From a virus, in IMG/VR virus record IMGVR_UViG_3300003322_000486, positions 1-51,589 of that record: a stretch of DNA of 51,589 nucleotides; one strand, given 5' to 3'. Position numbers and translations under genes: made by a program. Numbering within the stretch: position 1 is the first letter of the stretch; every line of letters starts with the position of its first letter. Shown here one piece after another: positions 23,967-25,577 of this stretch. The notes beneath the pieces were generated by a model that was not told where the DNA came from, searched no databases, and was given only the letters and a program-made list of their open reading frames with translations.

Positions 23967-23996
23967 CAAATATACCACACAAACAACAATAAACAA
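23967..23996 (-). promoter_or_regulatory. Leftward early (Cro) promoter
   Basis: On the minus strand, TTG (plus 23996-23994), a 19-base spacer and TATATTTG (plus 23974-23967) form a perfect TTG-N19-TAnnTTTG promoter. Predicted start near 23960, 25 bases before the Cro ATG. The -33 element lies inside the AACAACA array, so a bound repressor would block it. Confidence 0.7.
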
Positions 23997-24042
23997 CACT
24001 TAACAACAGGTTTAGATAAATTTCAAACAACAATAAACAACA
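23982..24042. repeat. Operator array: AACAACA boxes at 10-bp spacing
   Basis: AACAACA occurs at 23982, 23992 and 24002 (exactly 10 bp apart) and again at 24026 and 24036. Within this lies a perfect 19-bp direct repeat (23980-23998 and 24024-24042). A diverged pair with the same 10-bp spacing lies inside the CI-like gene at 24247 and 24257. Direct repeats one helical turn apart between divergent regulators are best read as repressor-binding sites. Confidence 0.7.
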
Positions 24043-24056
24043 TTAGAAAAAATCTA

Positions 24057-24503
24057 ATGACAAACTGGGGACTAAAAAAAATTATCGAACAAATTCAGAA
24101 AGATGAGGGTATAGACCTCACTGAAATAGCTGCCAGAGCTGAGATAGATAGAAGTTATCTTAGTTCATTTATCCATAATAAAAGGGAAAAGCCAGCCAGG
24201 GATTCTTATGTAGGTAAGATTTCTAAGCACTTTCCAAGGCATTTTAAACAACATAAAACAACAGACAAAGAAGGCAAAGGTGACATAGAAACTAGTTTAA
24301 GAGAGATCCGGGAACTTGCAATTGCAATATTAACTGGTCAATCGGCTGGACACGAGGTAATAATGGGGGCGCTTGACAGATTGGAAGAAAACCCTGAAGG
24401 CTCGCTTTCCGCAGCAGCGGACAAATTAGCATTACAACTTGCTCAGAGGATGAAAGCGATTCAAAGGGGCACTGATGGAGAAACTCACATGAAAGGCAGG
24501 TGA
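24057..24503 (+). CDS. CI-like repressor (XRE HTH, no peptidase domain)
   Basis: I start at the ATG at 24057 (148 residues), because the longer frame begins inside the promoter array. Residues 1-60 are an XRE/Cro-type HTH (G-L-K-K-I-I-E-Q-I-Q-K-D-E-G-I, then L-T-E-I-A-A-R-A-E-I-D-R-S-Y-L-S-S-F-I). The C-terminal half is helical (S-L-R-E-I-R-E-L-A-I-A-I-L) and probably dimerises. There is no S24/LexA peptidase domain, so RecA-driven self-cleavage is unlikely and induction must use another route. Divergent from the Cro-like gene. Confidence 0.8.
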   Translation: MTNWGLKKIIEQIQKDEGIDLTEIAARAEIDRSYLSSFIHNKREKPARDSYVGKISKHFPRHFKQHKTTDKEGKGDIETSLREIRELAIAILTGQSAGHEVIMGALDRLEENPEGSLSAAADKLALQLAQRMKAIQRGTDGETHMKGR

Positions 24504-24597
24504 TGGGTTTTAAGAAAATAGAGTTCATGGAAGCAAATGTTATTTGTTAATGGTACGCCGGAAGTTGGTTTGTCTGATAAGAAAAGAGAAAAAGGGC

Positions 24598-24763
24598 GCG
24601 GCCTTCGTGAAGCGATCAGGCCCTAGGAAGCCCTTAAGCAGCACTACAAGCACGCGCCTTATCGGCGCCCTGTAGTCGACTTTGCTTAATTGAATTTCCT
24701 AGGTTCGATCGCCAAGTGACTAAAGACCAATATTTTTTACCGGGAACCCGGTACGAAGGCCGC
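24598..24763. ncRNA. Large structured element of unknown function (possible ncRNA)
   Basis: A perfect 11-bp outer stem (24598-24608 with 24753-24763) encloses a long interrupted hairpin and a second short one. Inner helices: 24612-24617/24707-24712 (6 bp), 24622-24629/24696-24703 (8 bp), 24634-24640/24683-24689 (7 bp), 24643-24648/24671-24676 (6 bp), 24654-24658/24664-24668 (5 bp, 5-base loop). A 5-6 bp hairpin at 24739-24752 abuts the outer stem. On the minus strand a TACTTTTG box (24770-24763) touches one end and a U-rich tract (CCCTTTTTCTCTTTT, 24595-24581) follows the other, so minus-strand transcription is favoured, but no -33 element was found. No known RNA family was recognised. Confidence 0.55.
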
Positions 24764-24966
24764 AAAAGTAATTTAAAAATGATTACCCTGGATGGAGTTT
24801 TTTGACAAGCATACAAATCGGTTTAAGTGAAAGGGGATATGAATTTACTATTTATTTATATTCCCCAGTGTGGGTAATAACGTTTATGTACAACCTTAAT
24901 CAAATTTTAAGAAATATTGCCATACAAGTTTACATAGTTCCATTTAGTTATACCCGGTTAGTGGTA
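24764..24966. other. Non-coding AT-rich stretch after the structured element
   Basis: With the structured element this is part of a 543-base gap between the CI-like gene and the DUF4468 gene. It contains an imperfect hairpin GGGGATAT...ATATTCCCC at 24833-24866, usable in either direction, and CCCAGTGTGGG just after. A 64-codon TTG-started frame here is hydrophobic, AT-driven and not credible. Confidence 0.4.
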
Positions 24967-25046: not shown

Positions 25047-25577
25047 ATGAAACGATTATTTTTGCCCGTATTTATAACGCTATCCTTTTATTCGTACTCA
25101 CAAGATTCTGCACTTATTTATGCAAAGGTTATAATAATAGATTCTACTGACAAAAGCGACATATATGATCGCGCTCTATTATGGTGTTCAAAGTCTTTCA
25201 ATGAAAGCAAGGCAGCAATTAATGTAAAAGAAAAAGAGAGCGGTATAGTCGCCGGCAAGGCATCAATAACTAATATCTATAAAGTACCTGGCAAAAAAGA
25301 TAGTATTGCGAGTTGGGTTTTTAGTGACTATGTTTTTGATTGGGCAATAGAAGTAAAAGATGGCAAAGCAAGGTTTACGGCAAAGAATGTTGCCTATCAT
25401 GATGATTCCGGTAATCATCCAGTCTATATAAATAGTAAACCGCCCAATAAGGTTATGTTTCAGAAACCTGAGAAAACTCAAATTGAATGGGATATGTCAA
25501 AGAAGTATTTTATCGTTTATATGGACGGTTTAGCAGAAAGTCTTAAAGCCGATTTAACGCACAAGGATAATTGGTAA
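25047..25577 (+). CDS. Secreted DUF4468 protein (lysogenic conversion candidate)
   Basis: 176 residues. Signal peptide at 1-18 (K-R-L-F-L-P-V-F-I-T-L-S-F-Y-S-Y-S-Q). The mature part has the DUF4468 (TBP-like fold) pattern: Y-A-K-V-I-I-I-D, S-D-I-Y-D-R-A-L-L-W-C-S-K-S-F, K-E-K-E-S-G-I-V-A-G-K-A. This family is nearly restricted to Bacteroidota cells. On the lysogeny strand with its own promoter, next to an SGNH hydrolase, it is a classic cargo (moron) gene. A superinfection-exclusion or surface role is plausible but unproven. Confidence 0.75.
   Translation: MKRLFLPVFITLSFYSYSQDSALIYAKVIIIDSTDKSDIYDRALLWCSKSFNESKAAINVKEKESGIVAGKASITNIYKVPGKKDSIASWVFSDYVFDWAIEVKDGKARFTAKNVAYHDDSGNHPVYINSKPPNKVMFQKPEKTQIEWDMSKKYFIVYMDGLAESLKADLTHKDNW

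Follow-up and report, generated by a model that had tools for sequence, protein, structure and literature searches.

Is the large multi-helix element beside the CI-like repressor gene of a phage an RNA or a DNA structure, and what might it control? The element lies in IMG/VR virus record IMGVR_UViG_3300003322_000486, whose whole stretch of 51,589 nucleotides is called the window below; since it carries integrase, primase, exonuclease, portal, capsid and terminase genes, we take the window to come from a temperate tailed phage.

A conserved RNA beside a phage repressor gene

Folding of the minus strand of 24598-24763 gave a minimum free energy of -77.3 kcal/mol (z -6.3) and none of the shuffled sequences was equally stable; the plus strand gave -69.7 kcal/mol (z -6.3). 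The helices that a preliminary description had drawn here from the sequence are all in place, and read on the minus strand they make up an outer 11-bp stem, a short CCGGG hairpin and a long bulged arm (Table 1). The minus-strand box and the U-rich run that it had seen at the two ends are there as well. The box, TACTTTTG, shares one base with the outer stem, the stem's first, and fits TAnnTTTG, the Bacteroidota promoter consensus (PMC9723704). As had been suspected, the element belongs to no known RNA family: Rfam 15, with 6S, Flavo-1 and riboswitches included, gave no match for the window and the locus even at E<=10.

Searching phages by blastn with the whole element returned only chance matches, and the integrase used as bait gave no relatives. 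With the repressor as bait we obtained two contigs, L004 and L005, both with a diverged copy of the element in the same place. A DNA pattern made from these and the window led to seven further phages, and a later pattern without the apical hairpin to an eleventh, L124. Four of the 13 loci of the second viral pattern scan (L010, L011, L013 and L016) were rejected as chance matches without the RNA, and five pattern matches in bacterial-genome contigs (L019-L023) were also due to chance. The element is present once in the window's phage record and once in each of nine phage relatives.

Ten phages were aligned with a covariance model (R2) whose structure was given by hand, a first model (R1) from a poor MAFFT alignment having been discarded. 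Every helix is kept in the ten phages, with 94.2% of the cells paired and both partners altered in 26 of 57 pairs; the 63 double-changed cells, against 18 expected in shuffles, were reached in 0 of 500 shuffles, in an alignment that carries some bias toward the structure as it was fitted to the model. When the partner columns were slid by 1-3 positions the covariation signal was gone. The earlier impression that the arms are too regular for chance is thus borne out by both kinds of shuffling. All nine phage copies with an intact 5' end begin at TAnnTTTG, and all of them have a U-run at the 3' end. Because of the helix covariation, this start and this end, we assign the element to the minus strand as an RNA: the folded stretch is a real, strongly conserved RNA.

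The surroundings had been taken for a gap without genes; this does not hold, since a minus-strand ORF, referred to here as the Cys4 ORF, starts about 60 nt 3' of the RNA. An ORF of this kind (71-81 aa) is found on the RNA strand in 11 of 11 phages and starts 28-110 nt after the U-run. Its ten aligned copies have only the start Met and the four Cys as invariant residues. The phage loci contain 290 ORFs with lengths of 60-100 aa; the Cys4 motif occurs in 16 of them, and 15 of the 16 are this ORF (some loci overlap, and the 15 entries represent 11 phages). Because the repressors encoded opposite are unrelated, repressor coding is unlikely to account for the Cys pattern. The ORF has no PHROGs family, and its AlphaFold prediction (mean pLDDT 52) was uninformative.

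The HTH of the repressor itself is recognised weakly (PHROG 1337, E 9e-4; Pfam HTH_19, E 0.0023), with homologues in L004 and L005. Throughout the phages a convergent HTH gene turns its 3' end to the RNA, and the sequences of these genes are very different; one phage (L012) showed no intact frame for a repressor. Several other features were noted nearby. Repeated AACAACA(A/T)TAAACAACA-like motifs (23970-24050), likely operators, lie between the repressor and a divergent Cro-like gene. A weakly conserved block, TTCCTAACC..TTAAACC, stands some 40-75 nt 5' of the TAnnTTTG box in phages and is possibly an activator or repressor site. Divergent from the RNA, the window carries a DUF4468 secreted-protein gene (25047-25577, plus strand), and several phage relatives have similar or other secreted-protein genes in the same place; these upstream genes may be lysogenic conversion genes.

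Table 1. Features of the RNA and its neighbourhood. Positions are those of the window, except where a chromosomal locus is named.
Feature	Location	Strand or orientation	Basis
CI-like HTH repressor gene, convergent with the RNA	24057-24503	+	weak HTH matches
Small (Cys4) ORF, 78 aa, CxxC-x5-C-x15-C, antisense to 3' part of repressor gene	24292-24528	-	ORF list and homologues
Structured RNA, putative leader, about 175 nt	24589-24763	-	folding, model match, covariation
U-run 3' of stem	24589-24593	-	sequence
Segment C (CGCGCC), directly 5' of U-run; alternative partner of B; terminator-like stem of fold 2	24595-24600	-	window and family-wide comparison
Outer stem P1, 3' arm; overlaps segment C	24598-24608	-	folding and covariation
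Long bulged arm (fold 1)	24611-24713	-	folding and covariation (helices 3-6)
Segment B (GGCGCG): partner in apical hairpin or of segment C	24653-24658	-	fold comparison
Apical hairpin GCGCC-GATAA-GGCGC	24654-24668	-	phage homologues
AAAAATATTGG..CTTTAGT segment, conserved, mostly single-stranded	24714-24738	-	alignment
Short hairpin ACCGG-GTTC-CCGGT	24739-24752	-	folding and covariation (helix 2)
Outer stem P1, 5' arm	24753-24763	-	folding and covariation (helix 1)
-7 promoter box TACTTTTG (TAnnTTTG, Bacteroidota housekeeping sigma factor)	24763-24770	-	sequence and homologues
Septu PtuA	L052, L060	upstream of RNA, divergent	
Kiwa KwaB and Argonaute	L057	upstream of RNA, divergent	
Type I methylase	L060	upstream of RNA, divergent	
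Putative AbiC and AAA_13	L061	upstream of RNA, divergent	
PbeA/PbeC	L064	upstream of RNA, divergent	

The RNA family in Bacteroidota chromosomes

Model R2 matched 17 of 395 sampled Bacteroidota genomes (at full length where listed) and 16 of 149 genomes of one family, with up to five copies each. We built a further model (R3) on 30 of the chromosomal matches, with no phage-record sequence in it. R3 matched 50 of the 395 genomes (13%), with up to six copies and a best E of 1e-33, and recovered the phage window with an E of 5e-5, E-values of such home-made models being rough; it matched none of 498 genomes (249 + 249) of two other phyla. Because the filters were strict and few candidates were scored per genome, the 13% should probably be read as a minimum. 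The RNA family is thus widespread in Bacteroidota and common to phages and chromosomes. Twenty chromosomal loci gave no Rfam 15 family match at gathering scores. As a named example, plasmid pB3-10 of Rhizosphaericola mali carries the RNA just 5' of a hypothetical gene. Two genomes (G495 and G334) hold five and six copies, several of them ahead of SusC or sigma-factor genes, and at one locus (L123, 4424-4601 and 4707-4896) a weak second copy (E 0.007) stands in tandem behind a clear one.

The nearest downstream ORF is co-directional with the RNA in 58 of 60 chromosomal loci, a count that comes from simple ORF calls on related, hence not independent, loci, and the distance to the gene is sometimes merely 22-36 nt. 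In 13 of the first 20 loci an operon of SusC, SusD and a third gene follows the RNA; the third product, of about 870 aa, looks like an S9-type peptidase and is likely to be one. At other loci the RNA stands 5' of ECF-sigma-like genes or of genes for secreted proteins or lipoproteins, mostly identified by eye from their sequence. On the other side, a small divergent gene starts 78-146 nt upstream of the RNA in 43 of 62 loci, and most, not all, of those tested are HTH genes by Pfam. Defence genes were seen at five loci (Table 1), mostly behind a small gene of HTH type, and the unit of RNA and SusC appears there to form one border of a hotspot of defence genes.

Two mutually exclusive folds

The long arm found in the phages (fold 1) comprises 41 pairs in the 30 chromosomal sequences; 93.9% of its cells are paired, and its 93 double-changed cells, against 31 in shuffles (0 of 500), support it. 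In the same sequences the 3' half alone can form another structure (fold 2), in which B pairs with C, D pairs with a 3' partner and a GGUAU..GUACC hairpin forms, the whole abutting the U-run. Of the cells, 99.1% were paired in one calculation and 98.6% in another; in the second, 7 pairs are double-changed against 0.9 in shuffles (0 of 500). Thirteen columns of the alignment are paired in both folds, and in all 13 the partner is different. Chromosomal members therefore have two mutually exclusive folds, both backed by covariation. Judged by its sequence anatomy, fold 2 ends in a hairpin with a U-run that resembles an intrinsic terminator. The two folds of the chromosomal members differ little in energy: the mean is -57.4 kcal/mol unconstrained and -53.0 kcal/mol when the terminator helix is imposed, and a few sequences have the terminator fold as their structure of minimum free energy.

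Pairing of B with C is possible in 10 of 10 phages, with at least 6 pairs and one G-C/A-U double change, and its covariation taken alone is weak (30 of 500 shuffles). Segment C is contested between P1 and B, and fold 1, P1 included, lies 13-20 kcal/mol below fold 2 in energy. The switch is therefore best supported in the chromosomal branch, since phage fold 1 is far stabler and phage B:C covariation is weak. A leader peptide was also considered and rejected: one internal frame alone recurs, and several members (L072, L075 and L077, for example) lack its ATG, judged by eye, so a conserved peptide is unlikely.

A probable attenuator and its alternatives

An attenuator would be built in just this way, with a downstream gene in the RNA's orientation, a second fold that resembles a terminator and a competing fold that covaries, and on these features of sequence we consider the RNA to be, probably, a 5' leader acting as a transcription attenuator. 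The minus-strand promoter would start the RNA, the first part of which would pair with the 3' half to give the long, sensor-like arm of fold 1. Once freed, the 3' half would fold on itself into the long hairpin that ends at the U-run, and at this hairpin RNA polymerase would halt. Whether the downstream gene is transcribed would then depend on which of the two folds a signal stabilises. The gene controlled in chromosomes would encode an ECF sigma factor or a secreted protein or belong to a SusC/SusD operon; for the phage, the products of read-through would be the Cys4 protein and an antisense RNA across the CI-like repressor gene at its 3' end. Because the Cys4 transcript would run antisense through the end of the repressor gene, read-through could adjust lysogeny through the protein, through transcription antisense to the repressor, or through the two together. 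Of the earlier suggestion that a phage RNA is antisense to the repressor transcript or regulates it, a structured minus-strand RNA aimed at the convergent repressor has stood, and the effect on the repressor is what we infer. The preliminary description did not include the terminator fold, the downstream Cys-rich ORF or the large chromosomal family 5' of SusC and sigma-factor operons.

Besides the greater stability of fold 1 and the weak B:C covariation in the phages, two points weigh against an attenuator: in many chromosomal loci 200-900 nt separate the RNA from the gene, which leaves room for a second promoter, and an own promoter and terminator are equally expected of a stand-alone small RNA. 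Such an RNA would act in trans by binding a protein or by base-pairing, would always end at the U-run, and would have the neighbouring genes as targets or as merely linked bystanders. The box and the U-run, the presence of up to six copies per genome and the conserved, mostly unpaired AAAAATATTGG segment would all suit it. We nevertheless hold it to be rather unlikely, because the co-directional downstream gene found in nearly all chromosomal loci is not expected of a free RNA and the covarying second fold needs a reason. The position ahead of long SusC-SusD-third-gene operons would also fit a site of processive antitermination (nut-, put- or EAR-like), at which a protein or the RNA itself would modify RNA polymerase to cross downstream operon terminators, and the apical hairpin of the phages, a 5-bp stem with a GNNAA pentaloop, has what we take to be a likeness to boxB. 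This hairpin is identical in the phages whose search pattern included it, and the seeming invariance of the GATAA loop is largely due to that selection; it differs in L124, which was found without it, and in chromosomal members, so there is no fixed boxB. The element moreover ends in its own terminator-like hairpin, and antitermination seems improbable.

An element that works as DNA is the least probable of these readings, and we give it hardly any weight. Its large inverted repeats would suit a cruciform or a mobile-element remnant such as a MITE, and the order of its parts had been likened to a retron msr-msd. All intact homologues, however, carry the strand-specific promoter box and U-run, each phage has a single copy, and the helices covary; an alternative fold and a co-oriented gene also speak against a DNA structure. 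As for the retron likeness, the window record has no reverse transcriptase (RVT_1), and none came to notice among the neighbouring genes looked at, those of the chromosomal loci being annotated in part.

The probable attenuator resembles riboswitches and protein-controlled attenuators such as the trp leader with TRAP in being a 5' leader with two exclusive folds, one of which has a terminator-like hairpin with a U-run, and in having a co-oriented gene 3' of it. It differs from them in matching no Rfam family and in standing in phage immunity regions as well as ahead of SusC operons. Lambda OOP and similar antisense RNAs of phage immunity regions are transcripts that oppose the 3' end of an immunity gene. 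The transcript considered here would likewise do so; the folded RNA itself, in contrast, is located beyond that gene, has far more structure and precedes an ORF overlapping the repressor. In Flavobacterium psychrophilum, also of the Bacteroidota, structured 5' elements and Rfp sRNAs have been described, with TAnnTTTG promoters and in some cases without Rfam matches (PMC9723704); the leaders named there are those of pheA, hisG, ftsY, acsA, alaS and rimP, not SusC. Among the many Bacteroidetes RNA candidates of another study (PMC8040213), HMP2_4078 and HMP2_1032 are near phage genes or TonB but are shorter (109 and 106 bp) and palindromic. The text of these two papers does not describe the family; as published candidates were compared by description, it may already be listed under a number.

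A broader picture, which we regard as doubtful, is that of a Bacteroidota-wide switch RNA, often accompanied by small HTH genes, that would tie SusC and sigma-factor operons to adjoining defence operons through a common, perhaps infection-related signal, and that temperate phages would have captured to govern their immunity by way of a Cys4 protein encoded antisense to the repressor. A large, undescribed family of RNAs with two covarying folds, found ahead of SusC-type receptor operons, beside defence operons and in phage immunity regions, would be among the more widespread regulatory RNAs of Bacteroidota, and the regulation of SusC-type receptors, together with lysogeny in the poorly understood phages of these bacteria, would become directly testable.
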